From a virus, in IMG/VR virus record IMGVR_UViG_3300003621_000014, positions 8,337 through 36,045 of that record: a stretch of 27,709 bases of DNA; one strand, 5' to 3'. The notes beneath the pieces were generated by a model that was not told the DNA's origin, made no database searches, and was given only the letters and a program-made list of their open reading frames with translations. Position numbers and translations under genes: made by a program. The stretch's first letter is position 1. Every line of letters begins with the position of its first letter. Shown piece after piece: positions 437-19,661 of the stretch.

Positions 437-727
437 TTAAAAGTAATCTTCACTGTTTATATTCTTATCGTCGATAAAAATATCGTAAGGAGGTTTGCCG
501 AATTTCAATTCATGGTGTTTGACTCCCCATTCCTTAAATTGCTTCTTGGTTAGTTCCGAATGATCTATACCTGTTACGGAACCCCTTGCCGTCCAATAAA
601 CAATAGTGTTCCCTTCGTCGTATAATTTATTTATCTTTTTGATTCTGTCCATCATTGGGGTACTGGTTGTATAGTCGGTACTCCCTGTTTTAAATATAGT
701 ATTATCTATATCAACATATATTAACAT
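437..727 (-). CDS. Minimal HAD-superfamily phosphatase
   Basis: This is a 96-residue protein with three HAD signatures: the nucleophile motif DIDNT at residues 6-10 (D6 nucleophile, D8 acid/base), motif II YWTARG around 44-49, and the acidic motif DIFIDDK near 82-88. No cap domain fits in this length, so it is a bare Rossmann core, much shorter than GmhB (about 180 residues) or the sialate-9-phosphate phosphatase. Small HAD proteins of this kind occur in capsule and LPS gene clusters and in phages. Lying directly after neuB (11-nt gap) and before phoH, it may dephosphorylate a sugar phosphate made in the same cluster, but the substrate cannot be read from sequence. ATG at 727 is the only sensible start. 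Confidence 0.75.
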   Translation of the reverse strand: MLIYVDIDNTIFKTGSTDYTTSTPMMDRIKKINKLYDEGNTIVYWTARGSVTGIDHSELTKKQFKEWGVKHHELKFGKPPYDIFIDDKNINSEDYF

Positions 728-738
728 ATAAATTAATT

Positions 739-1578
739 TTATTTCCTTAAACTCTTCATTTTAGATAGTTCACCACCAAATAATTCTCTAGGACCTTCTG
801 GTATTGATAATGATTCTTCTATATCTCTAATACCTTTAACTAATTTAAATAAACCAGATGGTTCAATTGAAGCTGAATGATCGGATCCCCACATACCCCT
901 GTCTAGTGTTATGTGGCGTTCTACCCATTTTACGCCCATTGGTATAGCAGCGAAAGTGGTTACTAGCCCGTACTCATGTCCGCTATAACCTATTTCTTTT
1001 TCAGCGTAGTGGTTTTTTAACCATGTTATGTAATTTAAATTTAATTCGTTTACTGGACATGGATATGTTGAGTTTGTGTGCATTATAACGTCTGGGTTAC
1101 ACGCATCTATACATAAAGTAACCTCATCTTCATTACTCATACCTGTTGATATCATTAAGTAATCGGCCTTTTCTCTAGCATACTCACATAATTCAATATC
1201 GGTTATCAACGCCGATGGTATTTTCATAGCTACTCCTAGGTCACTTTCGTACTTCATCATAAAATCTACAGATGTTTTATCCCAAACGGATGCGAACCAG
1301 TTAATACCAATCTCTTTACAAAACCTATCTATTTCATCGTACTCAGCTTCACCGAACTCAGTTTTCCATTTATATTCTAAGTAAGTTATCTCACCCCAAG
1401 GAGTTTGTCTCATCTTACCTTTCTGTTCCTCTGGAACACATATGTCTGGGTTTCTTTTTTGAAACTTAACATAATCACAACCAGCAGCTTTAGCTACTAA
1501 TATTAATTGTTTTGCTATAGCTATATCCCCGTTATGGTTGATACCTATTTCACCTATAATCTTTGTCTTACTATTCAT
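739..1578 (-). CDS. neuB: NeuB-type nonulosonic (sialic) acid synthase lacking the SAF domain
   Basis: NeuB enzymes condense phosphoenolpyruvate with ManNAc or a related hexosamine to give Neu5Ac, legionaminic or pseudaminic acid. The 279 residues match the TIM-barrel domain throughout: GEIGINHNGD (9-18), DYVKFQKR (35-42), MKIPSALITD (118-127), MISTGMS (142-148), HTNSTYPCP (167-175), GYSGHE (197-202), ERHITLDR (220-227) and GSDHSASIEP (231-240). The protein stops at KMKSLRK, about where NeuB proteins enter the linker to the C-terminal SAF (antifreeze-like) domain, so the usual 60-70 residue SAF domain is absent. The gene sits 3 nt after the FkbM gene in the same operon as a NeuA-like enzyme and two sialyltransferase-like proteins. 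The family call is firm; which nine-carbon sugar is made is not known. Confidence 0.9.
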   Translation of the reverse strand: MNSKTKIIGEIGINHNGDIAIAKQLILVAKAAGCDYVKFQKRNPDICVPEEQKGKMRQTPWGEITYLEYKWKTEFGEAEYDEIDRFCKEIGINWFASVWDKTSVDFMMKYESDLGVAMKIPSALITDIELCEYAREKADYLMISTGMSNEDEVTLCIDACNPDVIMHTNSTYPCPVNELNLNYITWLKNHYAEKEIGYSGHEYGLVTTFAAIPMGVKWVERHITLDRGMWGSDHSASIEPSGLFKLVKGIRDIEESLSIPEGPRELFGGELSKMKSLRK

Positions 1579-1581
1579 AAT

Positions 1582-2217
1582 TTACTTTTGTTTATAATAT
1601 TTTTTATTTAACATAATATAGTCATTCTGTTTGACGTTAATTGCTGTTGATTTAAATATAGGAAAAAATCCTTTACTGTAAAGGTATTCCATAACTTTAG
1701 GTTCTAAAGTTTGTCCTGTGAAATATTCAACCTCCTCAGTTTCAATTTGTAGTATTTTTATATCCTCTAAAATACCACCAAAACTTTTTAAGGCTTCTAA
1801 TGTAGCTCCTTCAACATCTATTTTAACGAGGTCGGGTATATCTAAGGATTTTTCTGTTATGTACGTGTCCATCCTTTTACATTTTAACTCAACTAACCGT
1901 TCTTTAGTTTTTGATAAATTTTGTTCAAAAATACTATGTATACCATTTTGTTCTTTTTCGTAAAAATGTGTTACCCCATCGTAATCTCTTATTACGAAAT
2001 TTTCAAAACTAACTTTTTCGGTATCTTTACCTAGTAGGAATTTTTTGTAATTGTTGGGTAAACCTTCGAACCCTATAACTTTAGCGTCAAATAATTCTGA
2101 TAGAAGGAAGCTGTCAACTCCGTTTAAACACCCTACGTCATAAATTAATTTTATTTTTGATATATCCAAATTTTCATTTAGTACATCTTTCATTGTTTCC
2201 ATGTTTAATCTAGCCAT
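1582..2217 (-). CDS. FkbM-family SAM-dependent methyltransferase
   Basis: This 211-residue protein has a SAM-binding motif I, IYDVGCLNGV (25-34), an acidic motif II-like FEGLPNN (50-56), and the FkbM hallmark VKIDVEGATLEAL (131-143). FkbM enzymes O-methylate hydroxyl groups on sugars or small molecules and are frequent in LPS, capsule and phage glycan loci. The ATG at 2217 overlaps the end of the upstream GT4-like gene by 13 nt, so the two are probably translationally coupled. By position it likely methylates a sugar of the glycan built by the neighbouring transferases, but acceptor and position are inference. Confidence 0.85.
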   Translation of the reverse strand: MARLNMETMKDVLNENLDISKIKLIYDVGCLNGVDSFLLSELFDAKVIGFEGLPNNYKKFLLGKDTEKVSFENFVIRDYDGVTHFYEKEQNGIHSIFEQNLSKTKERLVELKCKRMDTYITEKSLDIPDLVKIDVEGATLEALKSFGGILEDIKILQIETEEVEYFTGQTLEPKVMEYLYSKGFFPIFKSTAINVKQNDYIMLNKKYYKQK

Positions 2218-3056
2218 TTTTCGTATATTTTAATGTATTCATTTGCGATAGTTTCTGGGTCCCAATGGTTCTCCATCCATAATCTACTTTCGTAACCTTT
2301 ATCAATTATTTTATTTAAACCAGATTCTATTAAATTAATTAATTCTATTTCTAAGTTTTGGTGATACGTGTTAATAAAAGGGTTTGTTTTAGCGTTTGAC
2401 GACCTTAGTAAAACTTCTTCTACTTCCTTACTAACAGAACATATGGTTGTTATACCCATGGCCATTGATTCGAGGCCTGATCTGTGATACGAATCGGTCT
2501 TAACTTCATCTATAAATATATTACACTCAGATTTTCTTTTGAGACATTCTTCTAGTGGCACCCCAGTAATCACCTCTATCTCCACTTTATCTTTATATAT
2601 TTTTTTTATTTTATTTAGGATTGGTATAGTTTCTTTGTAACCCTTATCAGCCCATTTAGACGAGGGTGTTGTTGAAGATGGTGAATATCCTATTCTAATT
2701 ACTTTGTTTTGATATTTGGGGATGTATTTAACATCAAATAAATCTACTGGGTTTCTTACCACTCTACAATGTCTATATTCGGGTAAGGTGGCATGATATT
2801 GGGCTATTACTAGTTTTGGTATATCAACATTTAATTCAACTCTAAAAGGTTCACTGTGGTATTGTATAATACTTTTCTTGGTAGTATAGAACTTCTTGTT
2901 GTGTTGGTGTACTATATCTGAATTAGGTATAATTAATTTACCTGGGTAAGAATAACCAACAACATATGATTTATGTTCGGTATATTTGTTTATAACCTCA
3001 CTTATAGCTTCTGGTGCCTCGGCTATGTTGGTGTGTTTAGTATGTGTTACTATCAT
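2205..3056 (-). CDS. GT-B fold glycosyltransferase (GT4-like)
   Basis: This 283-residue cytoplasmic protein has no membrane segment. The C-terminal half looks like a GT4 nucleotide-sugar domain: a beta strand with IRIGYSPSSTT near 120-130, a lysine/aspartate helix, EVITGVPLEECL, and then SYHRSGLESMAMG (189-201), which corresponds to the donor-binding EX7E region of GT4 enzymes. The N-terminal half is short (about 115 residues against 170-200 usually), with a histidine-rich stretch (IVHQHNKK). The ATG at 3056 overlaps the upstream GT29-like gene by 20 nt. The GT-B/GT4 assignment is by pattern; donor and acceptor are unknown. It probably adds a sugar to the same glycan that receives the nonulosonic acid. 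Confidence 0.7.
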   Translation of the reverse strand: MIVTHTKHTNIAEAPEAISEVINKYTEHKSYVVGYSYPGKLIIPNSDIVHQHNKKFYTTKKSIIQYHSEPFRVELNVDIPKLVIAQYHATLPEYRHCRVVRNPVDLFDVKYIPKYQNKVIRIGYSPSSTTPSSKWADKGYKETIPILNKIKKIYKDKVEIEVITGVPLEECLKRKSECNIFIDEVKTDSYHRSGLESMAMGITTICSVSKEVEEVLLRSSNAKTNPFINTYHQNLEIELINLIESGLNKIIDKGYESRLWMENHWDPETIANEYIKIYEKWLD

Positions 3057-4020
3057 AAAAAGTTATTATATTATTTTTTTTATCATACTCAAAAGCCATA
3101 CTCATTATTTCTAATTTCTCTTTCTTATAATTATGTACTTTAGATATCTCGTACTCTAAACCTTTATCTGTCCTTAATAAACTATTTTCACCACCGTCAT
3201 AGAAGTTAAATCCTATTAGGTCTATCTTTTTAAACCCACCTAGGTGTAATAATAACTTTAGCATGGTATACCCGCTAGTGCTTGGTTGTTCGTCTGTTTT
3301 CATACTATTATGATCATTATGGTGGTTATACTTAAGTATTAACCCCTGATGAACCTTGTTTAAACCTTTAACCTTATTGATCCAGTTAGTGAGGTTATTT
3401 GATATGATAAATCTTATAGGTACGTATTTATCTAGATTTTCGTCTTGTAGGTATACGCTAACATGTATTGTAGTTTTAGACCCAGTATATACTTCGTTTA
3501 ATTTAAATGAGTTGAATCTTACGACAATATCATTAGAGTCAATAATATCACCATTTTCTTTTTTAAGTAAGTCTGATGAGTTAGCAACTAATATTATAGT
3601 CTTATTTTTTATCATCCTCTTTAAATTATCTAAAGATAATAAAGAGCGTTTTTTTAAAAATTGGTTTAATAATCTGTCAATGGTTTCGTCATATAATTCT
3701 TGATTAGACTTATCATTGTTTTTTGTTTTAGTTCCTTTAATAGTGGTGAGTGTAGGTTCAGAAACATTTTTTTGTTCTGTTTTTACAACCCCTTTCTTTA
3801 AGTCAACATTTTTTTGTTCTGTTTTTACAACCCCTTTCTTTAAGTCAACATTTTTAGTTTTATTCACTTTAAGACCTTTTTTAGGGTTGTTAGCTGTTAC
3901 TATTTCAACCACGTTTTCTAAGACCTCATCGACCTGAGAATTAATTTTAATTCTTTGTTTCTGGTTACTCTTAGTAACTATTGATTTACCCTTATTTTTT
4001 TTCTTTGCGAAGTAACCCAT
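3037..4020 (-). CDS. GT29-type sialyltransferase with repeat-containing basic N-terminal region
   Basis: Residues 140-327 carry the sialylmotif pattern of family GT29. A motif-L-like segment IILVANSSDLLKKENG is followed by IDSNDIVVRFNSF (about 142-172). A motif-S-like segment begins at PSTSGYTMLKLL (246-257) and ends at IDLIGFNFYD. A motif-VS-like H296xxxxE301 follows. GT29 enzymes move sialic acid from CMP-sialate to a glycan acceptor. Residues 1-110 are lysine-rich with no signal peptide and contain two exact copies of a 14-residue unit (57-70 and 71-84) from a 42-bp tandem DNA repeat. The frame is open upstream to a TTG at 4041, but I use the ATG at 4020, giving 327 residues. The CDS overlaps neuA by 29 nt. 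Sialyl transfer is inferred from motifs and from the neighbouring neuA and neuB. Confidence 0.75.
   Translation of the reverse strand: MGYFAKKKNKGKSIVTKSNQKQRIKINSQVDEVLENVVEIVTANNPKKGLKVNKTKNVDLKKGVVKTEQKNVDLKKGVVKTEQKNVSEPTLTTIKGTKTKNNDKSNQELYDETIDRLLNQFLKKRSLLSLDNLKRMIKNKTIILVANSSDLLKKENGDIIDSNDIVVRFNSFKLNEVYTGSKTTIHVSVYLQDENLDKYVPIRFIISNNLTNWINKVKGLNKVHQGLILKYNHHNDHNSMKTDEQPSTSGYTMLKLLLHLGGFKKIDLIGFNFYDGGENSLLRTDKGLEYEISKVHNYKKEKLEIMSMAFEYDKKNNIITFYDSNTY
3763..3846 (-). repeat. Perfect 42-bp tandem duplication inside the GT29-type gene
   Basis: Two identical 42-bp units lie at 3763-3804 and 3805-3846, followed by the first 9 bases of a third. The period is a multiple of three, so each unit encodes the same 14 residues (NVDLKKGVVKTEQK) and the frame is kept. 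The lack of any difference between copies points to a recent duplication by slippage in the linker/stalk part of the protein, where length variation would be tolerated. Confidence 0.95.
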
Positions 4021-4642
4021 CAAAATCTTTTTTAGTGTCAACGTCTATAACATCGTATATTTTAAAGAAATATGTATCATCATTATATAAATTATTGTTT
4101 AGTTTACCTAATTCACTAACCTTAAATATAGATATGTAATGAGATATTTCAAATATTTCTGGGTAGTCTTGTCTCCTGTATAGATTATGTTTAACTAACT
4201 GTCTACCTTTGTTGTTACCTGCGTTTAACATATATAAATATGGGTGTACACCTTTAAAATCCTTTTTACACAACAAACTTTTTTCTTTATTATCTAAAAA
4301 TAATTTATAGACATTTTTAACCTCTTTAAAAGTTCTTTCTGGGTAAGTTAGGTATAGCATTATAACCACATCGTCGTAATTTAAATCACCGTTTTTAACT
4401 AGGTATTCAATGACTTCTTTTGTGCTGGTTGTGTCAATGGCTAACTCATCTGGTCTAATAGAAACTTTTAAACCCATTAATTCACATTTTTCGATCAATA
4501 CTTCATCATCTGTTGATACAATTATGTATTTGTGGTATTTTTTAGGTATACTATCAACTGTTTCGTTAAAAAGTAACCTATTTTTAAAAGGTAAGCCTTT
4601 TGAGTTTCTTCTGGCTGGTATTAATATTTTAAGTTTATCCAT
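3992..4642 (-). CDS. neuA: CMP-nonulosonate (acylneuraminate) cytidylyltransferase
   Basis: NeuA-type enzymes activate a nonulosonic acid with CTP, giving the CMP-sugar donor. The 216-residue protein starts with the nucleotide-binding motif IPARRNSKGLPFKN (about 8-21; family form IPARGGSKGIPxKN). It continues with VSTDDEVLIEKCELMG, then RPDELAIDTTSTKEV, and ends with a metal-site-like IDVDTKKDF. The length matches the 220-230 residues usual for bacterial CMP-sialate synthetases. The frame is open to a GTG at 4663, but the ATG at 4642 places the core motif at the usual distance and overlaps the upstream stop (4635-4637) by 8 nt, typical of this operon. It lies between the two GT29-type genes, so donor synthesis and transfer are encoded side by side. 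Confidence 0.87.
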   Translation of the reverse strand: MDKLKILIPARRNSKGLPFKNRLLFNETVDSIPKKYHKYIIVSTDDEVLIEKCELMGLKVSIRPDELAIDTTSTKEVIEYLVKNGDLNYDDVVIMLYLTYPERTFKEVKNVYKLFLDNKEKSLLCKKDFKGVHPYLYMLNAGNNKGRQLVKHNLYRRQDYPEIFEISHYISIFKVSELGKLNNNLYNDDTYFFKIYDVIDVDTKKDFDGLLRKEKK

Positions 4643-5168
4643 TATATAATAATTTAACTTCACCTTTATTAATGAGATTGTTGACCAAAGCCTTTTCTAA
4701 GTCTGGTCTATGACCTATCATTTTATTATCGTCTTTATAGTAATGAACTCCATTCTCAAAGAAATCAAAACCATGTATTTTGACATTATAACCTTTTTCT
4801 ATAAAATAGTATATCATCACTAATCCAGTAGTGGCCCATAGGTTACCAGCGTCTAACAATTTATTTACCTTGTTGTAGAATTTTACAGGGATCACATTAA
4901 ACCCATCATTAACTAAAATCTTCTTCTCTTCTTCGGTACATCTTATGATGTTTGGGTAAACGTAGAATTTACTTTTGAAGTTTTTGGTTATATGTTTAGA
5001 TGACATTTTAGTCTTGACCCATACGTCTGTTTTGGTACCAACGTGTTTTTCGTAACCTTTTGTCTCGAAGTCATTGAACCTAATAACTGTTTCATGAGAG
5101 TCTATTAGTTCACCCAATTCTTTATCTAAACAAGACGGACCATTACCTATCAATAAAACTTCTTTCAT
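4635..5168 (-). CDS. Compact GT29-type sialyltransferase
   Basis: This is a 177-residue protein with all three sialylmotif-like segments in the right order: VLLIGNGPSCLDKELG then IDSHETVIRFNDF (L, 4-34), WATTGLVMIYYF to VKIHGFDFFE (S, 111-138), and H153xxxxE158 (VS). It is essentially only the catalytic core, far shorter than animal GT29 enzymes (300-400 residues), with no transmembrane anchor, so it would act in the cytoplasm. It is clearly related in pattern to the larger GT29-type protein two genes downstream but not a recent duplicate. It overlaps the GT2 gene by 4 nt and neuA by 8 nt. The family match is good; its use of CMP-nonulosonate is inferred from context. Confidence 0.75.
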   Translation of the reverse strand: MKEVLLIGNGPSCLDKELGELIDSHETVIRFNDFETKGYEKHVGTKTDVWVKTKMSSKHITKNFKSKFYVYPNIIRCTEEEKKILVNDGFNVIPVKFYNKVNKLLDAGNLWATTGLVMIYYFIEKGYNVKIHGFDFFENGVHYYKDDNKMIGHRPDLEKALVNNLINKGEVKLLYNG

Positions 5169-6604
5169 ATAACTTTTTTACTTTTATGAGAATCTTTAGT
5201 GAAGTCTGTGATATGTTTCTCTCTATCGAAATCGTATTGGTAACCCAGGGATCTATCCCTGTTAAACTTACTTAACCTTTTATGGTAACTACCCATTTTA
5301 TCTAGAAAGTATTTTAACCCTATTTTTTTATAATGTAATAGTTTAACATCACCATCGAAATACTTTACATTACCAGAGGGGTTAGCGACATGACAGCCGA
5401 AATTATAATTAATCTCCTTTATCTCACTTGGCTTGAACATACATAGTTTGTCAAAATGATTGTGTCTTATACCGTATTTAACGTCACTTAATAAATCAAC
5501 ACTTTTAGTGATGTCGAAATCCTCTATTATCATATCATAACCCACTGGTTTTATTATAGTAGCACTACTATCGTTAAAGTTTCGTATTAAAGTTCCTATG
5601 TTTTCGGTATATAGAAACTCGTCCATATCACAAACTATTACAATGTCCGCTCTACCTATCGAATTTTTCCATAAATTATTTTTTATCTGTAGGTAGGCAT
5701 CGTCGCGTATTTCACCACCAGTATCGTAACTAATGATAGTTACTTTAGGGTGTTCAGTTAATATCTTAACACTATTGTCATTAGATTTGTTATCGTAAAC
5801 TATGATTCTATCAACCCAGTTTTCGTAGTGTTTTAAAAATGAAGGGATTATCTTTTCTTCGTTCCAACATAGTACGTGTAAGTCTACTTTTGGTAATGAT
5901 TTATCGAATACTATATGTGAGGTGTTTTTATTTAGGTTTATTGGTATGTTTTTAGAATTTCTGGTCTCAAAGATTAATTTATTCTCCTCCCATTGTTTGT
6001 TAGTACCACCAACCGATTTATGTATCAATTTAATATTAGACATTAAACCTATTTTAGCCCCATTTATATGATTATCAAAACAAAATGATATGTCATAGAA
6101 ATGGAACCCTTTATACGATTCATCGAATTTACTTATTAACCTAGTCCTATCTACCGCTAAAAATAAACCATCCAGAACAACCATCTCTTTTAGTTCATTA
6201 CCGTAACTTTTAGAGAATTTATTCTCCCATACTTTATTACCGTCGGTGTGTTTAACGGTTCCGTGCATAGCGTTCCTTATCTCCCACCACATACCACTGA
6301 TCATGTGATTCGTGCCAGCAACACCTAGTATGGAATATTCTTCATTTTTATCAAAATGTTTTATTAACTTATTACCCCAATTTTTTGTTTCAAAAATTAT
6401 ATCATCATGACAAAAAACCACTATATCACTAGACGCTTCTTTTAACCCTTTGTTGTATATTTCAGTTAATGAGTATTCTCCGTTATTTAGGTACGGTAAT
6501 ACTTCAACACCTTTATGTAGACATGTTTTTTTTACGTGTTCAACAAATGAATCGTCTATAGCTCTGGTTGAGAAAACGACACTGATCTTAATGTTAGTCT
6601 TCAT
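5165..6604 (-). CDS. Two-domain GT2 (GT-A) glycosyltransferase
   Basis: Two GT-A domains are joined in 479 residues. Domain 1 (about 5-210) begins KISVVFSTR, has an acidic FCHDDIIF (64-71) in the place of the DxD metal site, and includes WWEIRNAMHG and LDGLFLAVDR, resembling the StrF-like GT2 subgroup (Glyco_tranf_2_5). Domain 2 (about 240-440) begins DLHVLCWNEE, then DNKSNDNS, and carries a clear CDMDEFLY (325-332) with the D326xD328 metal motif, resembling Glyco_tranf_2_4. No membrane segment is seen. Such tandem GT2 proteins can add two different or alternating sugars. The ATG at 6604 overlaps the upstream small gene by 11 nt. Substrates are unknown; the context suggests it builds the acceptor glycan. 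Confidence 0.8.
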   Translation of the reverse strand: MKTNIKISVVFSTRAIDDSFVEHVKKTCLHKGVEVLPYLNNGEYSLTEIYNKGLKEASSDIVVFCHDDIIFETKNWGNKLIKHFDKNEEYSILGVAGTNHMISGMWWEIRNAMHGTVKHTDGNKVWENKFSKSYGNELKEMVVLDGLFLAVDRTRLISKFDESYKGFHFYDISFCFDNHINGAKIGLMSNIKLIHKSVGGTNKQWEENKLIFETRNSKNIPINLNKNTSHIVFDKSLPKVDLHVLCWNEEKIIPSFLKHYENWVDRIIVYDNKSNDNSVKILTEHPKVTIISYDTGGEIRDDAYLQIKNNLWKNSIGRADIVIVCDMDEFLYTENIGTLIRNFNDSSATIIKPVGYDMIIEDFDITKSVDLLSDVKYGIRHNHFDKLCMFKPSEIKEINYNFGCHVANPSGNVKYFDGDVKLLHYKKIGLKYFLDKMGSYHKRLSKFNRDRSLGYQYDFDREKHITDFTKDSHKSKKVI

Positions 6605-6896
6605 CTTTTTCTTCTATTAATTCTCGTACCGTATCATCGTCTTTAAATTTTAATACAGGTATGATCCCATTAAACATCTGTATGAAACTAAATTTTAAAC
6701 TAACCTCATTTAGCTCTCTTTGGAGGAAAGTGGCTAACTTATACTCGTCCGATCCTGGTGGATAAACAAATGCGTACAATACTTTATCTCCGACCTCTAT
6801 CCTTTTACCAGACCAAACTGTTTTGTACTCGACTCTATCTAGTACATCTGGTGTGATAGTTTTGTAAGCCTTTATTTGTTCTTTAAATTCTTCCAT
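6594..6896 (-). CDS. Small acidic protein of unknown function
   Basis: I do not recognise this protein. From the ATG at 6896 it has 100 residues; the frame stays open to a GTG at 6935, inside the dUTPase gene. I prefer the ATG because it starts just upstream of the dUTPase stop and has an AGGAG 12 nt in front, one of the few Shine-Dalgarno-like sites here. The middle looks like a small beta-rich fold (VGDKVLYAFVYPPGSDEYKL), followed by a helix and a strongly acidic tail (EEKDED). It has no signal peptide or membrane segment. It lies between dut and the GT2 gene, overlapping the latter by 11 nt. Its position could suit either a nucleotide or a glycan role. Confidence 0.6.
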   Translation of the reverse strand: MEEFKEQIKAYKTITPDVLDRVEYKTVWSGKRIEVGDKVLYAFVYPPGSDEYKLATFLQRELNEVSLKFSFIQMFNGIIPVLKFKDDDTVRELIEEKDED

Positions 6897-6900
6897 AACA

Positions 6901-7485
6901 TTATTTAACTCCTGTTGAACCAAACCCGCCTTCACCTCTTTCTGATGAAGATAGTTTATCTTTTTTTATAAGTTTAGTCCTATCCATTGTTTGTACGGCG
7001 GCTATAACTCCTTGGGCTATTCTATCACCATTATTTACGGCAAATGATTCTGAATTATCTGTATTATAAAGTATAACCCCTACTTCGCCTCTGTAACCAG
7101 AGTCTACTGTACCAGGACTATTTAATACCATCACACCGTTTTTAAGGGCTAAACCACTTCTAGACCTAACCTGTAATTCATAACCTAACGGTATCTGAAA
7201 ATATAAACCAGTTTTTATTAATGTTCTATTACCTGGTTTTAGTTCGATCGGTTCATCTATATTGGCTCTAATATCAAAACCACTGTCGCCGTGTTTTTCG
7301 TATGATGGGTCAGGGTTGTCAGATTTATTTATAAATGATACTTTTAATTTTATACTCATGGTTTCTTGGTCGTAATCCCAGTCACCCATTAAATCTTGTG
7401 TTTGACCTAACACACTTTCTAAGTCTTTCTTAACATCCTCACTAAGAAGTTCGTTTATGTTTATATTATCTAAATGATTTTCCAT
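6901..7485 (-). CDS. dut: dUTP diphosphatase (trimeric dUTPase)
   Basis: This enzyme hydrolyses dUTP to dUMP and diphosphate, keeping uracil out of phage DNA and feeding dTMP synthesis. All five motifs of the trimeric family are present: DSGFDIRA (67-74), RSRSGLA (107-113), GTVDSGYRGEVGVIL (125-139, with the catalytic Asp in VD), GDRIAQGVI (153-161) and RGEGGFGSTG (183-192, the P-loop-like C-terminal arm). It has an unusual acidic N-terminal extension of about 43 residues; an internal ATG before SIKLKVSF would give the normal 150-residue length. I keep the ATG at 7485 because it sits 1 nt after the upstream GT stop (7487-7489), as elsewhere in this operon. A nucleotide enzyme here shows that the glycan genes are embedded in ordinary phage metabolic genes. 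Confidence 0.92.
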   Translation of the reverse strand: MENHLDNININELLSEDVKKDLESVLGQTQDLMGDWDYDQETMSIKLKVSFINKSDNPDPSYEKHGDSGFDIRANIDEPIELKPGNRTLIKTGLYFQIPLGYELQVRSRSGLALKNGVMVLNSPGTVDSGYRGEVGVILYNTDNSESFAVNNGDRIAQGVIAAVQTMDRTKLIKKDKLSSSERGEGGFGSTGVK

Positions 7486-7486
7486 T

Positions 7487-8710
7487 CTAAACTAATGATT
7501 TGTATAATTCGTCTCTATATTTTGTTACGTTATTTATATCGTAACGATCTTTAACTGTTTCGTATAACTTTTCACCTAAGTCCGTTACCATATTTGGGTT
7601 ATCCATTAACATTTTAACGTGTTTACCCCATTGTTTATGGTTTTTACTAGTTTCCACTAATAAAGAGTTACCATCACTGTTAATAGTACCACCTTTGTTT
7701 ACCGCTGATATTAAATCTATTGTATACGGACCGTAGTTTTGTGCAATGATAGGTTTTTTGTGGAAACCAGCCTCAATAACTTTTAACTGAGACTTGTATT
7801 TATTAAATTCGTTATCTAACAAAGGTGCTAATGCTACATCGAACTCGTTATAACCTGTAGCATAGTTATTAATATTTTTTGTCCATATCCTTCTGTATGG
7901 TTTGTTTAAGTCATCAAATTTAACTTCTGGGTCAAACTTCATTAGATGACTTAGATACTCGGTATCACCCTCTAATAATCTAAAATTGTTAGTTATAAAC
8001 ACCTCATACATGAACCATGTAGTTTCTAGTGGTTGCATATCTCTTTCCATCCACTTTTTAGTTTCTGGGTTGAACATTTTAACCTTACCTCTTTTATCGA
8101 AACCGCATAAAACAAATTGTATTTCATCTTTTCGTTTTGCTGTGGTCTGAGCTATATCTTTAATTAATTCGATATCTTTAATATGGGAAGACCCGCCAAG
8201 CCAACCGAACCTTAATCTATCAGATTCTGTAGGTTTTGGTGTAAATTGTTGTTCTTTTGGGTTAATCGCGTTTGGTAATACGAAACAGTTTTTGTTGTAC
8301 TTAAATACTTCATCTCTTAGTATTTCTGTTGTAACAGTTACCATATCAGCACTTTTAACTAGATTGATAATAGTTCTACTGTATCCACCTTCTTTAGCCT
8401 GTAAATACATACCGTGAGATTTATCCAATCTCCAGTAGTCATCTAAATCAAGAACTATTTTACCACCTAAAGATTTTATCTTAGCGAAAATCTCTTCGGC
8501 TTGTTGGTAATTACCCCCAGGTACCCTATTAAAAAAGAATATATTAAACTTTTTTAGGTAGTTAGTGTCGTTAAAATCTATATTTTGGTTTATCTCTACA
8601 AAATATTCTTCACTGTGGTTATTTTGTAGGGTTACGTGTGGGTCTATACACCTGTATTTACCAGATCCAGACCTATCATTAGGGTTAACTAGTATGTTTA
8701 TCTTACTCAT
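7487..8710 (-). CDS. GT-B fold glycosyltransferase (GT4-like)
   Basis: This 407-residue protein starts INILVNPNDRSGSGKYRC, like GT4 enzymes whose N-terminal domain opens with a strand and a glycine-rich loop. It continues with IVLDLDDYW, then SADMVTVTTE and FVLPNAINP (the usual link between domains), a C-terminal strand LRFGWLGGSSHIKDIEL, and FDVALAPLLDNEFNKYKSQLKVIEAG (about 295-320), with acidic and lysine residues where GT4 enzymes bind the nucleotide sugar. An inserted segment around 215-275 (KKWMERDMQPLETTWFMYEV onward) lengthens the C-terminal domain. No signal or membrane segment is seen. Similar proteins are widespread in T4-like marine phages. Donor and acceptor are unknown. The 62 nt upstream hold no clear promoter. 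Confidence 0.78.
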   Translation of the reverse strand: MSKINILVNPNDRSGSGKYRCIDPHVTLQNNHSEEYFVEINQNIDFNDTNYLKKFNIFFFNRVPGGNYQQAEEIFAKIKSLGGKIVLDLDDYWRLDKSHGMYLQAKEGGYSRTIINLVKSADMVTVTTEILRDEVFKYNKNCFVLPNAINPKEQQFTPKPTESDRLRFGWLGGSSHIKDIELIKDIAQTTAKRKDEIQFVLCGFDKRGKVKMFNPETKKWMERDMQPLETTWFMYEVFITNNFRLLEGDTEYLSHLMKFDPEVKFDDLNKPYRRIWTKNINNYATGYNEFDVALAPLLDNEFNKYKSQLKVIEAGFHKKPIIAQNYGPYTIDLISAVNKGGTINSDGNSLLVETSKNHKQWGKHVKMLMDNPNMVTDLGEKLYETVKDRYDINNVTKYRDELYKSLV

Positions 8711-8772
8711 TAAATTTATTATTTGTGTAATAATAGTAAATTTAATGCATAAATTAAAGTAAATCTGTTTAT

Positions 8773-9519
8773 TTATTTGGGTGTTACTACCCCTCTTCTA
8801 CTTACGACGTTGGAAGCGTTTTCATTAGCTTTTATTATAGCTTCTGAAATATCTGAGGTTATATAGTAGGTAGTTATGAATGAAGCGGTAAAAGTATCAC
8901 CAGCACCGCTTACGTCTATGGTTTCTTGAGGGTTTAGTGATGGGTATAATTTACTACCATGTCTAGCACCTTTAGATCCTAGTGTTACTATAATACCGTT
9001 ATGTGTTAAATGTTTATTGTTACCATATTCTGATTCATTCAATTTTATAAACGTATAACTATTTATAATATCATTATTTAATTTACGCTTAGAATCTAAT
9101 ATAGATAACTCACTTAACTCTCCTATTCTTTTTACATCAGAATCCTTTAAAAAACCTTTGTTGTAATCACTTACAACGACTATATCAGCCTGTTTTATAG
9201 ATTCTATGATATCGTTAGTCCATTCTATAGGTGTTAAACTGTCCTCACCTTTATCTACCCTTAAGAACATATGGTTAGATTTATTCTCGATATAACGTGT
9301 TTTAGTTATATTTTCAGTTTGTATCACTGAAGTAATCTGAGAGTTTGGTAATATAGACTTTAAATTTGTTGTTGTGTTACCAGACATACCTCTATTTTTA
9401 ACAGTTTTTATTGGGTTTAAAACTGGTACTGGGGCTTCTGGTGATAATCTATCCGATTTACAATAAATAAACTCGTCAGTGCAACTCTCACCTATAACTA
9501 GAATTCTAATCTTATTCAT
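8773..9519 (-). CDS. PfkB-family sugar kinase resembling the HldE (RfaE) kinase domain
   Basis: At 248 residues this matches the kinase half of HldE, which phosphorylates heptose 7-phosphate at O-1. Landmarks are LVIGESCTDEF (7-17), LSPEAPVPV (25-33, highly characteristic of RfaE/HldE), FLRVDKGE (85-92), VVSDYNKG (115-122), NESE (161-164) and DVSGAGDTF (202-210) with the catalytic Asp208 and GAGD anion hole. It is about 60 residues shorter than bacterial HldE domain I, with losses in the middle, and there is no cytidylyl/adenylyltransferase domain. It probably phosphorylates a sugar for the glycan block, but the exact substrate is inference. It starts 30 nt after the Omp28-like gene, with no terminator between them. 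Confidence 0.8.
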   Translation of the reverse strand: MNKIRILVIGESCTDEFIYCKSDRLSPEAPVPVLNPIKTVKNRGMSGNTTTNLKSILPNSQITSVIQTENITKTRYIENKSNHMFLRVDKGEDSLTPIEWTNDIIESIKQADIVVVSDYNKGFLKDSDVKRIGELSELSILDSKRKLNNDIINSYTFIKLNESEYGNNKHLTHNGIIVTLGSKGARHGSKLYPSLNPQETIDVSGAGDTFTASFITTYYITSDISEAIIKANENASNVVSRRGVVTPK

Positions 9520-9549
9520 ATAATAAAAATTTACCTTTATTAATTAAAG

Positions 9550-10320
9550 TTATTTAGTGAATGCGTTGACAAATTGTAACCCCCAAGGTTCTTGTTTGTA
9601 GATCACTAATCCGAAAGAAATATCTTTTGTTTTCCAGGAAACATCTTTTTTTACTGTAAAGTCTAGGTTAATTGTGTGGCCTCTTTCAGCACCATTTGTT
9701 GTTAATTGGTACCCAAAGTTTTCTACTGAACTAACCGTTGTTGGTTTTGCGACTCTAGCAACATAGTTGTGATGAACTGTGTTGTTCCCGTCAACATGCC
9801 CATTTTGGTAACCAACGATGTTGTCAACTATCATGTATGGGGCTATATAGTACACACCTTCCACATTAGCAAAAAACTTTGTTGTGGTTTTTAACAACAC
9901 ATTTTGACCTGATACTTCCATGTCGTAATTAGCGCTAGCAACAACGTAATCAGATTCAACGTGCTTCGTAATCACTGAATCATCAGCGTTTGGAATAAAA
10001 TTGTAAAAAAATGTTGGTACTGAACCCCCTAAGTTAAAAGTTGGTCCTACTTCATCAAACAAAGTTGAACCTTCGGTAGTTGTAAAGGCGTCTTTCCAAG
10101 CCATAAATAGGGCTTTTCCTTTGTAAGTTTCTTTCAATGTTTCAAATTGAGGAAACCCCCAACTTCCACAAGGCCCGCACCAAGTTGCAGTTCTCTTTCC
10201 GATAACAGCCATGTTTGCTTCTGTTACTTCCAATGTGTTTTCTGATTCTTCCATTGGTGATGTTTTTCGACAAGCGAATAGTGCTGTTGTGATTAACAGG
10301 CTTAAGATTATTTGTTTCAT
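9550..10320 (-). CDS. Omp28-like thioredoxin-fold lipoprotein
   Basis: This is a 256-residue exported protein. The N-terminus MKQIILSLLITTALFAC is a lipoprotein signal peptide with Cys17 as the lipidated residue, followed by an acidic linker. A thioredoxin-like active site ATWCGPCG (45-52, Cys48/Cys51) precedes FETLKETYKGKALFMAW, and the rest is a beta-rich domain (about 130-256). This is the layout of Omp28-family lipoproteins of Bacteroidota. It would be anchored in the cell envelope of the infected host and might act in disulfide exchange, envelope modification or superinfection exclusion; none of these is shown. A strong terminator lies just upstream (10357-10394), so it needs its own promoter. 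Parts of the gene (around 9770-9840) look richer in G+C than its neighbours, suggesting host origin. Confidence 0.8.
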   Translation of the reverse strand: MKQIILSLLITTALFACRKTSPMEESENTLEVTEANMAVIGKRTATWCGPCGSWGFPQFETLKETYKGKALFMAWKDAFTTTEGSTLFDEVGPTFNLGGSVPTFFYNFIPNADDSVITKHVESDYVVASANYDMEVSGQNVLLKTTTKFFANVEGVYYIAPYMIVDNIVGYQNGHVDGNNTVHHNYVARVAKPTTVSSVENFGYQLTTNGAERGHTINLDFTVKKDVSWKTKDISFGLVIYKQEPWGLQFVNAFTK

Positions 10321-10333
10321 AGTTAGTAGATTT

Positions 10334-10373
10334 ATTGCAATATAGTGAATTTAATTAAAAACCCAATTAATAT
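10334..10373 (-). promoter_or_regulatory. Weak candidate promoter for the Omp28-like gene
   Basis: On the minus strand ATTG is separated by 19 nt from TATATTGC, which approximates the Bacteroidota TTTG-N19-TAnnTTTG class with one mismatch in the first box and two in the second. It lies inside and just downstream of the hairpin terminator and ends about 15 nt before the ATG at 10320. The match is weak, but the gene must have some promoter in this gap unless it relies on read-through. Confidence 0.25.
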
Positions 10374-10394
10374 ATTGCATTTAATTGGGTTTTT
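10357..10394 (-). terminator. Rho-independent terminator, probably bidirectional
   Basis: A perfect 14-bp inverted repeat (AAAAACCCAATTAA at 10357-10370 and its complement at 10381-10394) encloses a 10-nt loop. Read leftwards, the stem ends GGGTTTTTAATT, giving a U-rich tail. It lies 6 nt beyond the stop of the DUF397-like gene and ends transcription of the 13280-10401 gene group before the Omp28-like gene. Confidence 0.85.
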
Positions 10395-10400
10395 GAGTTT

Positions 10401-10592
10401 TTAACTTTCTTGTTTGTTGGTGGTTATATCGTCGAACTTACCCGACTTGGCCGCCTCAACAAAATCAGAAAACTGTGATTTAGTCCATGTGGTTATACCT
10501 TCTGGACCTTCTTTATCGCCAAGTACTATCGTGGATTCTTTCACCTCTATTACTGGACAACATTTGTTTTTACAAAATTTTATTACAGACAT
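10401..10592 (-). CDS. Small DUF397-like protein
   Basis: This 63-residue soluble protein has the pattern CPVIEVKESTIVLGDKEGPE, then a Trp/Thr segment (TTWTKSQFSDFVEAAKSGKFD). This resembles DUF397, whose members read roughly 'C-VEV-...-VRDSKDP-GP-L-F---EW-AFL-GVK-GEFD'. DUF397 is mostly known from Actinobacteria, often next to regulators, and has no established biochemical role. Two closely spaced cysteines (Cys11, Cys12) follow Cys7. It starts 1 nt after the stop of the holin-like gene and is the last gene before the strong terminator. The match is by eye over about 45 residues, so the family name is tentative; the gene itself is well supported. Confidence 0.55.
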   Translation of the reverse strand: MSVIKFCKNKCCPVIEVKESTIVLGDKEGPEGITTWTKSQFSDFVEAAKSGKFDDITTNKQES

Positions 10593-10593
10593 A

Positions 10594-10773
10594 TCATACT
10601 TTTTTAGTATCCTTGATTTTATCTAAGATTGACCATATACCACCTATTAGTGTTGTACCACCACCGATTAATTCTAATACAAGAGCTTCGTCAGCAAACC
10701 CTTTTGCGACAACAATACCACCAACAAATGTTAGTACGTGTCTAATAATTCCCATTAATTGTTCTTTGTTCAT
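10594..10773 (-). CDS. Small holin-like membrane protein
   Basis: This is a 59-residue ORF. It begins MNKEQLMGIIRHVLTFVGG, followed by a hydrophobic glycine-rich helix (IVVAKGFADEA), a turn, and a second hydrophobic stretch (LELIGGGTTLIGGIWSIL), with a charged tail DKIKDTKKV. This closely follows a small phage protein family annotated as putative holin (Pam3-gp28-like), where 'IIRHxLTFxGG', 'VAKG' and a terminal 'GxxWSxxxK' recur. Such proteins would insert into the inner membrane and could permeabilise it at lysis. It lies 1 nt before the DUF397-like start and 13 nt after the upstream stop. No endolysin gene is seen in the window, so the lysis role rests on family resemblance only. Confidence 0.65.
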   Translation of the reverse strand: MNKEQLMGIIRHVLTFVGGIVVAKGFADEALVLELIGGGTTLIGGIWSILDKIKDTKKV

Positions 10774-10786
10774 AATTTTTATTTAT

Positions 10787-11383
10787 TTATTTATTTTTAT
10801 TATTCTCTTTTAATGACATTAATTTACCACCAAAAGTCTTTTCACCTATTTTTATTTGTATAGTCTCATCAATAGACGTATTTTTACTCATCTTGTCTAT
10901 CGTTTCTTCAACAGTTTTTTTTATGATATATTCTATCAAATTAGTGTCCATAACTGGAGCTTTAGATTCTACTACAACCTCTTTAGTTATTTCGGGTCCT
11001 GTTGATTGATATACGTTATTGTAACTGTTTTGAGTCTCGTTAACCTTACTTACAACGTTGTCTAAACCAACTGGTACTGTTGGGTCGTTAATAGGGTTGT
11101 TTAAGAAAGATTCTAATATTTCTTTAGGCATTTTAGATGACTCTAGGTTTTTCATAGTCTTTTTAGGTCCAGTGTTCTTAGACGCTACCCTTGCTTTCAT
11201 TTCAGCCTCAGATATGTACTCTGGTTCCCTTTCATTATAGTTAGGTTGTGGTGGGTATGATGTGCTAATACCATTATTTGTGTTTTGGTTGCTATTAGAG
11301 ATACCACCTTCTACTTTCTGCATTACTTTTCTTGCGTTAGCTATACCTTGAGCTAATTTATTCGCTTTTTCTTCACTATTCAT
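10787..11383 (-). CDS. Unrecognised phage protein, partly disordered
   Basis: I do not recognise this 198-residue protein. It has an N-terminal helix (MNSEEKANKLAQGIANARKV), then a low-complexity part rich in Asn, Pro and Tyr (about 28-56), a helical middle with many Lys and Glu, and a compact C-terminal segment (about 147-198) with TNLIEYIIKKTVEETIDKM and a short beta-like IQIKIGEKTFGGKLMSL. There is no signal or membrane segment. It overlaps the WYL-like gene by 8 nt. In large phages, groups of such short genes between the polymerase and a holin often encode assembly or minor virion proteins, but nothing in the sequence decides this. Confidence 0.7.
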   Translation of the reverse strand: MNSEEKANKLAQGIANARKVMQKVEGGISNSNQNTNNGISTSYPPQPNYNEREPEYISEAEMKARVASKNTGPKKTMKNLESSKMPKEILESFLNNPINDPTVPVGLDNVVSKVNETQNSYNNVYQSTGPEITKEVVVESKAPVMDTNLIEYIIKKTVEETIDKMSKNTSIDETIQIKIGEKTFGGKLMSLKENNKNK

Positions 11384-13324: not shown

Positions 13325-16300
13325 TCACACTGGAATTTCTTCTTCGAAACCAGGTATTTTAAATATTATATCATCATTAAACCAAAAATCAGGTTCATAT
13401 GATAGTTTATTCCAGAACTCTTTTTCTGTTGGTGATGGGGTGTAAAACTCTAATAAGGTATCTTGGTCACCTATATCGTTAGGTTGATTATTCAACAATT
13501 TTAATTCCGACCTTAGGAACATTTTCTTGTCTTCTGGTTTATTTATCAATATATCACCCCTAACATTTAAAGAGTACGAAACTAATAATGGTTTTATTTT
13601 CTTGTTAAAAGCGTCTAGATATTTAGGTACGTTATATTCACCTATCTCATTAGGTTTGTTTTCTATTATATCCATAGGTACTAAAGAAGCATACATTTCA
13701 CCTTCTTTATTATATTGCGAATCACCGTGAGACTTTACCTTACCATTATTTACATAATATATTGTATCACCTAAGTTAACATCTAAGTTATTTATAACCG
13801 CTAATTCCATATGAGCCTGTTTAGGTAGGTCTCTACCATTTTTATCAGTGCCTCTATTTTTATAATCCTCAATACTCTTCTTAACTCTTGATTTAGTTGC
13901 TATCATAGCTAATGGTATTTCTTTGTTATATATCTTTTCAGCATATTCATGATAATAACTAACAAATTCATAACCCTTATTCTCTAACAACATTTTAATC
14001 CCTTTTTTAAGGAATTCTTCTATATACATAGGTAGTTTTTTGGATTTAATACTGTTACCAGTTAAACTAATACTACCATCATATTCTAGGAGAGCATAAT
14101 TTTTTCTAGATAGGTTTATAGTTGATGGCCATACCCCATCTAAACTCAACCCCATTTCTTTACGCATATATAAGTCGTTGAATTCCGCAACCGTAGCGTC
14201 TACACCAGTGTACTCTCTGCCTTTTTCAACGCTGTTACTTAAACCTTTACCTATATAAATAAAATCTTCACCACTCTCTGGCGCTGTGAAGTTTACACCA
14301 TCGGTATCTAATACTGAAGGGTCGTAACCTTTCTTTATAAAGAATTTAACTAATAATCTAAGGTATTGCCTAGCTGTACATGTTATTTGCTCACTAACAT
14401 CTATCTCAGCCCATTGAAAGGCTAGAGGAGCACCCAGGGCACCGAACATTGAGTTTATAAATATCTTAAGTGGTAGTTGTTTTCTTTTGTATTTATCCGC
14501 TAATTGATAGTTACCCTCTTTTTTATACTTACTGGCTAGGTTTTTAGCTTTAAACCTCTCTGTGTGAAAGTATTTTAACATGGATTTCATAGCCCCATTA
14601 ACATCAGAACTAGGGAATATATCGTGAGCTAATTGTATGGCTGGGTATAATGAGTCGTAATCCATTTTCCTTAATTCTTCAGAATAACCGACCTTAAAAA
14701 GTCTAGATAACCCACCAGTAAAACTACGTCTCTCTTCTGGGGTTGGTACGGCTAAACCATTCTCGAAGGAATAGGTCATCATTAAAAGCTTCCATAACCC
14801 AGCGGTACCCATTGTGGATACTCTTTGGTAAGTTGTTGGTACTAGCTTAGCTAATAAAAATGAAGACTGGTTGTAAACCTCATCTACTTCCATGGTTTCC
14901 CATAAATCATCAATAAGATATCTCTCAACAATATATTTACCATCAACAGGTTTTATTGTTTCTATGTAAGAACGCAACGCTTTTAGCGTTTGTATTAAAA
15001 AGTTGTAGGTATTAGGTGCTCTTAATTGTAGTTGAGAAGAATCTGTACCTATACCACTTTTAGGGAAATTAACTTTCTTACCCTCATCAATAAATCTGAT
15101 TATCTCCTTGATACCCTTATTTATTTTAACTTTATTATCCTCTAATTCTAGGTCGTTAAAGAATGAATCATCGGTATTACCTGGTTTTTTCTTAGTAAGG
15201 ATAGGTATTGCGTTGCTTTCGCCACGCATCTCTTTAGATTGTTCACCAAAACCTTCTAAAGACTCATTCTCACTATAAACAAATATCTCTTCTGGGTTTG
15301 ATTGTACGTACTCTCTTGTTATGTTATCGATAAAATCTATGGAACCTTTAGCTTTGTTGTAGGTACCGTTCCTGTCATTAAAATAAAAAGTATCTTTTGA
15401 ATACCACGTATCACCTATTTTATCACCAGTGATATAAACACGATTTTTCTTATTTATTTTATTGTATTTACAAACGTATTTAAGACCTGCTGACTTCATA
15501 CTGGAATCGATAGCTTGAGCTCTTCTGGCTGAGTGTATAATGTCTATAATACTATAACCAAACATATTAGTTTGTTCGAAATGTTCGACTTCACTACCTA
15601 GTTTAAGCATTCCTGATCTATTATTGATTAACTCACCTTTCTTAAGGGTGATTGCTATTTTTTCTATATCTAACCCTAGTATTTCACATCTTTTAAAGAA
15701 AAATGGCCAGTCAAAGTTAGCACTATTGTATCCCGCTATAATAGCTGGTTTTATTTCGTTTATTTTATCAAAGAATTTTATGATACCTTGTCTTTCTGAC
15801 TCGTCATTGTCTTCGATTGGTATTATTTCTTCCACACCTTTATTTGTGTACATACCAATCATAAATATCCTACTATAACTAGGGTCTAAACCAGTTGTTT
15901 CTAAATCGAATACTAGTTTGTGTATTTCAGAATATTCATCGAAACCCTTAAAAAGTCGTTTACCAGTATGTATTAAATATTGTTCTACTGGTGATATCAT
16001 TAAGAAATTAGATCTTATATCATTTCTTTTATCATAAACATATAAACCACCTTCTTTAAAGAACTGTAACATTCTTTGGTGTCCCTGAGTACAGGTTAGT
16101 AAATACCTATAACCTTCAATTAATTTAGGGTGATTACTGTGTTCTAACGATTTTATTTCTATACCGAATTTTTCTCTAGCAGATCTTATCCTAGCATCGC
16201 TATTACCGTAGAAGTTTATTAATTCCTTAACTTTGTTAAGGTTTTTAATCCACATAAAAGCGAGTAGAGGCTCCTTTTCGGTATAGAGGCCTTTTTCTGG

Positions 16301-16426
16301 ATGCTGTTTTATTTTGTGAATAAGATTTGTTTCTTTGTCGTATTCTATATTAACAATATACTTCTCATCATCATGTCCATTTAAAAACTTTTCTATTTGA
16401 TCTAAAGGTATCTTGTATCCAGCCAT
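13325..16426 (-). CDS. Family B DNA polymerase with 3'-5' exonuclease
   Basis: This is the replicative polymerase of the phage (functional counterpart of T4 gp43), 1033 residues. Exonuclease motifs: ExoI VFDLETTG (172-179, Asp174/Glu176), ExoII AGYNSANFDWP (231-241, Asp239) and a probable ExoIII Y503xxxD507. Polymerase motifs: A MDYDSLYPAIQL (588-599, Asp589), B LKIFINSMFGALG (653-665) and C LDTDGVNF (706-713, Asp707/Asp709). Motif C has DTDG instead of DTDS, and motif A ends SLYPA instead of SLYPS. ExoII and ExoIII are about 265 residues apart, against about 105 in T4, so an extra domain or long insertion lies around 330-490. The A-to-B spacing is short (about 65). The gene has its own promoter just upstream. 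Confidence 0.95.
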   Translation of the reverse strand: MAGYKIPLDQIEKFLNGHDDEKYIVNIEYDKETNLIHKIKQHPEKGLYTEKEPLLAFMWIKNLNKVKELINFYGNSDARIRSAREKFGIEIKSLEHSNHPKLIEGYRYLLTCTQGHQRMLQFFKEGGLYVYDKRNDIRSNFLMISPVEQYLIHTGKRLFKGFDEYSEIHKLVFDLETTGLDPSYSRIFMIGMYTNKGVEEIIPIEDNDESERQGIIKFFDKINEIKPAIIAGYNSANFDWPFFFKRCEILGLDIEKIAITLKKGELINNRSGMLKLGSEVEHFEQTNMFGYSIIDIIHSARRAQAIDSSMKSAGLKYVCKYNKINKKNRVYITGDKIGDTWYSKDTFYFNDRNGTYNKAKGSIDFIDNITREYVQSNPEEIFVYSENESLEGFGEQSKEMRGESNAIPILTKKKPGNTDDSFFNDLELEDNKVKINKGIKEIIRFIDEGKKVNFPKSGIGTDSSQLQLRAPNTYNFLIQTLKALRSYIETIKPVDGKYIVERYLIDDLWETMEVDEVYNQSSFLLAKLVPTTYQRVSTMGTAGLWKLLMMTYSFENGLAVPTPEERRSFTGGLSRLFKVGYSEELRKMDYDSLYPAIQLAHDIFPSSDVNGAMKSMLKYFHTERFKAKNLASKYKKEGNYQLADKYKRKQLPLKIFINSMFGALGAPLAFQWAEIDVSEQITCTARQYLRLLVKFFIKKGYDPSVLDTDGVNFTAPESGEDFIYIGKGLSNSVEKGREYTGVDATVAEFNDLYMRKEMGLSLDGVWPSTINLSRKNYALLEYDGSISLTGNSIKSKKLPMYIEEFLKKGIKMLLENKGYEFVSYYHEYAEKIYNKEIPLAMIATKSRVKKSIEDYKNRGTDKNGRDLPKQAHMELAVINNLDVNLGDTIYYVNNGKVKSHGDSQYNKEGEMYASLVPMDIIENKPNEIGEYNVPKYLDAFNKKIKPLLVSYSLNVRGDILINKPEDKKMFLRSELKLLNNQPNDIGDQDTLLEFYTPSPTEKEFWNKLSYEPDFWFNDDIIFKIPGFEEEIPV

Positions 16427-19578: not shown

Positions 19579-19661
19579 TTTGTATGTATTTATAATAAAT
19601 AGTTTAATATAGCTAAAAACGTCATCATATTAGTTGTGTAACTATATAATAATTTAAAAGA

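Follow-up and report, generated by a model that had tools for sequence, protein, structure and literature searches.

Within the 27,709-nucleotide stretch analysed here (the window; positions 8337-36045 of the 36,045-base IMG/VR virus record IMGVR_UViG_3300003621_000014), we found a minus-strand gene cassette (437-5168) that very probably gives a phage the capacity to make, activate and transfer a nonulosonic acid, since it encodes a NeuB-family synthase with invariant active-site residues, a NeuA/PseF-like CMP (cytidine monophosphate)-nonulosonate synthetase that keeps its metal- and carboxylate-binding residues, and two GT29-like transferases recognized by profile and fold, along with a small HAD phosphatase. 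Sugars of this class are best known from the surfaces of animal cells and from bacterial coats. Computation establishes which families, folds and active sites the steps use, and that their genes cluster in a conserved way. The module is widespread in phages yet unreported in the searchable literature: open-licence full texts yielded no account of a phage gene set for making, activating and transferring a nonulosonate, which is not proof of absence.

In the pathway that we propose, and that we consider likely, if not strongly so, in this fully spelled-out form, NeuB would join phosphoenolpyruvate (PEP) to a hexose-6-phosphate (most likely mannose-6-phosphate) to give a nonulosonate-9-phosphate, from which the small HAD phosphatase would strip the phosphate; the NeuA/PseF-like enzyme would then use cytidine triphosphate to form the CMP-nonulosonate, and the two GT29-fold enzymes would move the sugar in the cytoplasm to acceptors, probably glycans made by the neighbouring GT2/GT4 enzymes. 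The FkbM protein may add a methylation, and the acceptor would most likely be a phage structural protein modified before assembly. The module joins known enzyme families in a phage setting: its synthase lacks the SAF domain, its route is probably phosphorylated and the sugar site of its synthetase looks altered.

Searching IMG/VR once with the window NeuB recovered 80 loci (54-100% identity) which, with the window's own record and two from INPHARED, were dereplicated at 97% identity to 63 loci. A synthetase gene lies within 10 kb of NeuB, always on the same strand, in 57 of these 63, and an HAD homologue lies within that distance on the NeuB strand in 55-57; at no more than 60 bp from NeuB we found the synthetase in 28 loci and the HAD in 24. 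INPHARED searched by tblastn with NeuA returned only two records. Comparison with orthologues in the closest relative (L007) revealed that all genes are under purifying selection, which acts most strongly on NeuB and the HAD (pN/pS, the ratio of non-synonymous to synonymous changes, 0.05 and 0.08, versus 0.26 for NeuA and 0.35 for GT29a). Because the cassette is conserved in 63 non-redundant loci and under purifying selection, a chance assembly is excluded. An earlier sequence-only reading of this DNA had predicted the make-activate-transfer set, which our results support, but had called it unusual in a phage, whereas it is common in IMG/VR. The presence of the same core in more than 60 distinct relatives suggests that decorating themselves or their host with a sialic-acid-like sugar is routine for large phages.

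A synthase without the SAF domain and its neighbouring HAD gene

The window NeuB scores 202 bits with the NeuB TIM-barrel profile (PF03102, cut-off 22.1), which places it in the NeuB nonulosonate synthase superfamily. Among the NCBIfam models NeuB_NnaB (6e-56) outranks PseI (1e-39), with neither reaching its equivalog cut-off, and the equivalog for classical N-acetylneuraminic acid (Neu5Ac) synthase, TIGR03569, gives 190 bits, short of the 399.65 required. Across 40 aligned phage NeuBs, E10, K38, Q40, K119, H201, E220 and H222 are invariant, and we take these to be the catalytic, PEP- and metal-binding residues. None of the 40 has the C-terminal SAF (antifreeze-like) domain: all stop at a linker of the form E..K..SLR, beyond which cellular SAF-type NeuBs extend by another ~55-60 residues. 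In characterized NeuB, residues of the SAF domain shape the substrate site.

NeuB scores in a scan of 119 Bacteroidia genomes were bimodal, with eight SAF-less proteins at 309-377 bits and the rest, mostly SAF-type, at 223 bits or below. The SAF-less clade bears the signature FQ-KR...WG..Y..YK...EF where most SAF-type enzymes have FQ-T...LEL, and it receives support of 100/98 in a tree of 106 NeuB sequences. The same tree unites 52 of 53 phage sequences in one group (100/99) together with eight contigs from metagenome-assembled genomes (MAGs) that may be phage contigs; L087-L094, from MAG bins of several phyla and with a NeuB nested in the phage clade, are probably phage contigs inside MAGs.

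The cellular members of this clade keep company with a particular phosphatase. In 88 cellular loci with a SAF-less NeuB (many Hymenobacter rows being near-copies), an HAD resembling KdsC or the phosphatase of KDN (2-keto-3-deoxynononic acid)-9-phosphate is adjacent in 43, fused in 17 and nearby in 3. For the other Bacteroidia NeuBs, a KdsC-like HAD occurs in the neighbourhood of all four that carry the KR signature and of none of the 21 that do not (Fisher 8e-5). An actinomycete locus (L150, 6783-8819) encodes a single 678-residue fusion of CMP-synthetase (residues 1-215), KdsC-like HAD (225-375) and NeuB (405-675), while five others (L148, L152, L158, L161 and L164) have NeuA-NeuB fusions of similar length. 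NeuB of Marinimicrobia L098 is followed by a CMP-synthetase, an HAD and a gene resembling transferases for KDO (3-deoxy-D-manno-octulosonic acid), and this HAD matches the KDN-9-phosphatase model NF058599 at 1.3e-44, above KdsC; the same four genes are consecutive in L098, L099 and L105 (~7995-11230). As four such Marinimicrobia genomes, all drafts, gave no match for KDO-8-phosphate synthase, a nonulosonate may replace KDO in their lipid A core. Other surroundings occur as well: in a subset of Hymenobacter loci the SAF-less NeuB has no KdsC-like HAD nearby, and in L097 (Hymenobacter) it adjoins a class III aminotransferase, an SDR protein and an SpsF-like cytidylyltransferase.

In the window, the HAD gene overlooked by the sequence-only reading lies 11 bp from NeuB and is part of the cassette. 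Its homologues keep the HAD motifs (DxDxT, the motif II Thr, the Lys and the acidic residue), with D6, D8, T10 and T46 present in 54 of 54 and K78 and D87 in 53 of 54. A NeuC-type 2-epimerase was detected in only one of 18 large phage records. Because the SAF-less clade pairs with KDN-9-phosphatase-like HADs, the phage HAD is adjacent and the NeuC-type epimerase is rare, a phosphorylated route from hexose-6-phosphate and PEP is probable, and the earlier view that the phage needs only a hexosamine is not supported as it was put. By analogy with the cellular enzymes, it is more likely that the phage NeuB acts as a nonulosonate-9-phosphate synthase, with the small HAD as its phosphatase in place of the KdsC-like enzyme.

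A comparable pathway operates in Bacteroides thetaiotaomicron and Prymnesium parvum, where KDN-9-phosphate synthase, KDN-9-phosphate phosphatase and CMP-KDN synthetase act in turn (PMC6200933). The phage set likewise combines a NeuB-family synthase, an HAD phosphatase and a CMP-synthetase and would need no supply of N-acetylmannosamine (ManNAc), but its NeuB is SAF-less, its HAD belongs to another subfamily and it brings its own transferases. With the bacterial pathways for Neu5Ac, legionaminic (Leg) and pseudaminic (Pse) acid (NeuB, LegI, PseI; NeuA, PseF) it shares the NeuB and CTP_transf_3 families and their catalytic residues; it departs from them in the missing SAF domain, the FQ-KR rather than FQ-T...LEL signature, Tyr in place of Q104 in the synthetase and the general lack of NeuC.

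Predicted activation and transfer of the sugar

The synthetase resembles the Neisseria meningitidis CMP-Neu5Ac synthetase 1eyr over the full domain (phmmer 3.6e-14, 1eyr residues 8-216) and matches the PseF model at 5e-14, below its equivalog cut-off. Aligned to 1eyr, it retains R12, S15, K16, K21, N22, R71, R165, Q166, D209 and D211. In the Neisseria enzyme D209 and D211 bind the metal and R165 the carboxylate (PMC2901514), and among the phage synthetases with Tyr at position 104 (Y-type) the Asp pair is kept in 41 of 41 and R165 in 39 of 41, with the equivalents of Q166, R12, K16, K21, N22 and R71 in nearly all. The Gln104 that contacts Neu5Ac and Mg and marks a CMP-Neu5Ac synthetase in the strict sense is Tyr in the window protein; substitutions of Q104 in the Neisseria enzyme lower catalytic efficiency for Neu5Ac 200- to 47,000-fold (PMC2901514). 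Outside phage records, the Y104 type turned up in a single MAG contig, L088, itself probably from a phage. Judged by these residues, the activation chemistry looks intact and the sugar side looks altered. Since Gln104 is Tyr, it is doubtful that the product is 'sialic' in the narrow meaning of Neu5Ac; as the most likely product we tentatively put KDN or a close relative, not Neu5Ac from free hexosamine, at close to an even chance. Neither NeuB nor the synthetase falls with KDO enzymes, and a KDO pathway was rejected: CMP-KDO synthetase models score far below NeuA and PseF, and the synthase is of the NeuB, not the KdsA, family.

Both transferases exceed the Pfam GT29 cut-off of 23 bits (GT29a 64.1, GT29b 26.5), so that NeuB, CTP_transf_3 and GT29 profiles all find their match in the cassette. 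In AlphaFold2 (AF2) models, made from input alignments without LR756508.1 rows, GT29a reached a mean confidence (pLDDT) of 91.3 and its first 30 matches in the Protein Data Bank (PDB) were all GT29 sialyltransferases (best E 8e-10, TMq 0.63-0.78); the model of the GT29b domain is weaker (pLDDT 68), and its best matches are also GT29 (ST6Gal1, 1.7e-5). A profile built from 27 phage GT29 sequences found solely sialyltransferases in the PDB (ST3Gal1 1.5e-31, GT42 CstII 2e-10) and aligns with ST3Gal1 through the VS motif, including the sialylmotifs and the VS His. Only G115 (the motif-S Gly) and H153 (the catalytic His) are invariant among these 27 divergent sequences. GT29a and GT29b are hence predicted GT29-fold transferases, with CMP-nonulosonate as predicted donor. 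They share with ST3Gal1, ST6Gal1, ST6GalNAc2 and ST8Sia3 the sialylmotifs L, S and VS, the catalytic His-x4-Glu and the predicted fold, but the phage protein is far shorter (177 aa), has no signal or membrane anchor and shows 14-20% identity in structural alignments. GT29b carries a Lys-rich N-terminal extension of ~115 residues ahead of its GT29 domain, and this extension holds a 14-residue tandem repeat, NVDLKKGVVKTEQK.

PF00777 was found in 6 of 18 large phage records with this NeuB and in none of 14 control genomes. Because GT29s diverge fast, tblastn with GT29a in phages and IMG/VR gave almost no matches. A clean GT29 profile counts 32 proteins in 25 loci; a tally of 33 loci was too high because a mixed cluster also held GT2/GT8-type proteins. 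An MptE/Maf-like family (PF01973, just below cut-off), for which we make no claim of nonulosonate transfer, occurs in 21 of the 63 loci, and GT29 or Maf-like proteins in 40. The huge phage LR756508.1 (484 kb, unannotated) has NeuB, synthetase and GT29 in one region at 51%, 43% and 28% identity to the window proteins; unlike the window, it has five GT29 paralogues, arranged around its NeuB (4168-5097 and 17247-22065 of locus L004).

Gene layout around the cassette

The virus is a tailed phage, with a tail sheath (phrog_23, 2e-53) that is distant kin of cyanophage and other T4-like myovirus sheaths, a head-tail adaptor, DNA polymerase B and a DNA helicase. One minus-strand series of open reading frames (ORFs) runs from 437 to 9519 with overlaps and gaps of -50 to +62 bp, and within the cassette neighbours overlap or are spaced by -50 to +11 bp (Table 1). 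Profiles bear out the places that the sequence-only reading gave to NeuB, the synthetase, both GT29 proteins and FkbM; of the GT2 and GT4 enzymes that it put in the same span, the GT2 protein is real but lies outside, and the GT4 is unproven, its ORF having no match in Pfam, PHROG or NCBIfam searches. Homologues of this putative GT4 (44-75% identity) stand at several NeuB loci, including L004, L007, L012, L014, L018, L025 and L080. FkbM is shared, among the loci, solely with L007 and is therefore accessory, as far as gene content tells. The glycosyltransferase at 7487-8710 recurs at 54-78% identity in most nearer relatives (L007-L025), and the sugar kinase, besides the window's virus, only in L007, L009 and L011. 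The window also encodes a predicted lipoprotein that weakly matches thioredoxin (9550-10320), unusual for a phage, and a family B DNA polymerase (13325-16426) in which a DUF7831 stretch separates the exonuclease and polymerase parts.

Table 1. Genes of the cassette and the adjoining ORF series, in window coordinates
Feature	Position	Strand	Evidence
Small HAD phosphatase (EcbF/BcbF-like, 96 aa), proposed nonulosonate-9-phosphate phosphatase	437..727	-	phrog_1238 8.7e-26; TIGR01689 3e-6
NeuB-family nonulosonate synthase, SAF-less, 279 aa	739..1578	-	Pfam NeuB 9.7e-60; 40-sequence alignment; tree
FkbM-family methyltransferase	1582..2217	-	TIGR01444 2.4e-15
Putative GT4-like glycosyltransferase	2205..3056	-	homologues at other NeuB loci; no family match
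GT29-like transferase b, 334 aa	3037..4041	-	Pfam GT29 5.1e-6; phage GT29 profile 7e-50 (domain)
CMP-nonulosonate synthetase (NeuA/PseF-like), Y104 type	3992..4663	-	CTP_transf_3 3.6e-6; PseF 5e-14; 1eyr 3.6e-14
GT29-like transferase a, 177 aa	4635..5168	-	Pfam GT29 1.8e-17; AF2 pLDDT 91.3
Protein with two GT2-type domains, possible acceptor-glycan builder	5165..6604	-	Pfam Glyco_tranf_2_5 2.6e-25, Glyco_tranf_2_4 4.4e-17
GT4-like glycosyltransferase	7487..8710	-	phrog_7162 glycosyltransferase 1.1e-49
PfkB/RfaE-domain-I-like sugar kinase, loosely associated	8773..9519	-	TIGR02198 1.7e-31, below cut-off

Acceptor, sugar and significance

Several observations weigh against the proposed pathway. 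The correlation of FQ-KR with the HAD in Bacteroidia comes down to two pairs of related sequences; the phage HAD stands outside the KdsC-like subfamily (the window protein gives no match to NF058599, the KDN-9-phosphate phosphatase model of that subfamily, and among phage loci only L017 has a KdsC-like HAD); Tyr occupies position 104 in 41 of 60 phage synthetases, that of the window among them, Gln being retained in 15; and GT29 is found in just 25 of the 63 loci. Since members of this small HAD family also neighbour heptose genes in cyanophages, a role as nonulosonate phosphatase is a step that we infer.

As to the acceptor, no cassette protein has a transmembrane-like segment, and the 18 phage records contain neither the initiating glycosyl-phosphate transferase PF02397 (0/18, versus 9/14 controls) nor the flippase PF13440 (0/18, versus 14/14 controls). 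The usual route to a lipid-linked surface polymer of its own is therefore closed to the phage, and the sugar is probably attached in the cytoplasm. We favour a virion protein as first candidate, at somewhat below even chances, and a host precursor as second. With the same chemistry, the sugar might instead cap a host surface glycan (a lipopolysaccharide or capsule precursor) and so mask receptors or exclude superinfection. Capping of surface glycans is the classical role of GT29 and GT42 enzymes. Acinetobacter prophage enzymes (epaA/epaB, O-acetyltransferases) reportedly modify bacterial nonulosonates (PMC12053666, PMC6586298). Those phage genes, like the present ones, act on nonulosonates, but they modify host-made sugars, whereas here the phage has genes for synthesis, activation and transfer. 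The missing initiator, flippase and transmembrane-like segments speak against a host glycan, although cytoplasmic capping of a host precursor is compatible with them, and we consider this acceptor rather unlikely.

In line with the sequence-only reading, the sugar from the same pathway could also be a 5-N-acyl nonulosonate resembling Neu5Ac, Leg or Pse and built on ManNAc-type precursors of the host or the phage, which agrees with the NeuB_NnaB top score, a gene resembling UDP (uridine diphosphate)-GlcNAc 2-epimerase in 8 of the 63 loci, an aminotransferase-like cluster in 27 and an epimerase-like cluster in 32, and a canonical Q104-type synthetase in 15. The window synthetase, however, is of the Y104 type, no 2-epimerase was found in the window virus's 80 kb contig or a 154 kb relative, and NeuB lacks the SAF domain in a clade whose cellular members pair with KDN-9-phosphatase-like HADs; a 5-N-acyl sugar is accordingly unlikely. 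That the genes have decayed or been repurposed and make no CMP-nonulosonate is improbable: the loss of substrate-shaping SAF residues and the crippling effect of Q104 changes in Neisseria (PMC2901514) would fit, but selection is strongly purifying, the remaining catalytic residues are all kept and NeuBs without the SAF domain remain intact and conserved in different phyla, trifunctional fusion included. An anti-restriction modification of phage DNA is very improbable, since, for all that T4-like phages glycosylate DNA and the cassette has dUTPase, PhoH and PolB genes around it, the thymidylate-synthase family that includes the T4-type base hydroxymethylases is represented in only 6 of 18 records and absent from both the 80 kb contig and the 154 kb relative.

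For the proposed phage nonulosonate pathway, the cellular relatives suggest a SAF-less synthase branch that works via phosphorylated intermediates, including the three-domain actinomycete fusion. Conservation of this core in 63 or more distinct phage loci would mean that phages harbour a large and overlooked stock of nonulosonate enzymes and GT29 transferases. It is a bolder and, taken whole, doubtful idea that large tailed phages run their own nonulosonate pathway with a Y104 synthetase retuned to a nonulosonate unused by cellular NeuA enzymes and a phage GT29 branch that sialylates virions, as it were; if such a phage-specific branch of synthetases and GT29 enzymes were real, many environmental phage particles would be sialylated-like glycoproteins. 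The cassette thereby raises the question of whether large environmental phages wear coats of acidic nine-carbon sugars on their virions, and how these would affect adsorption, decay and recognition.

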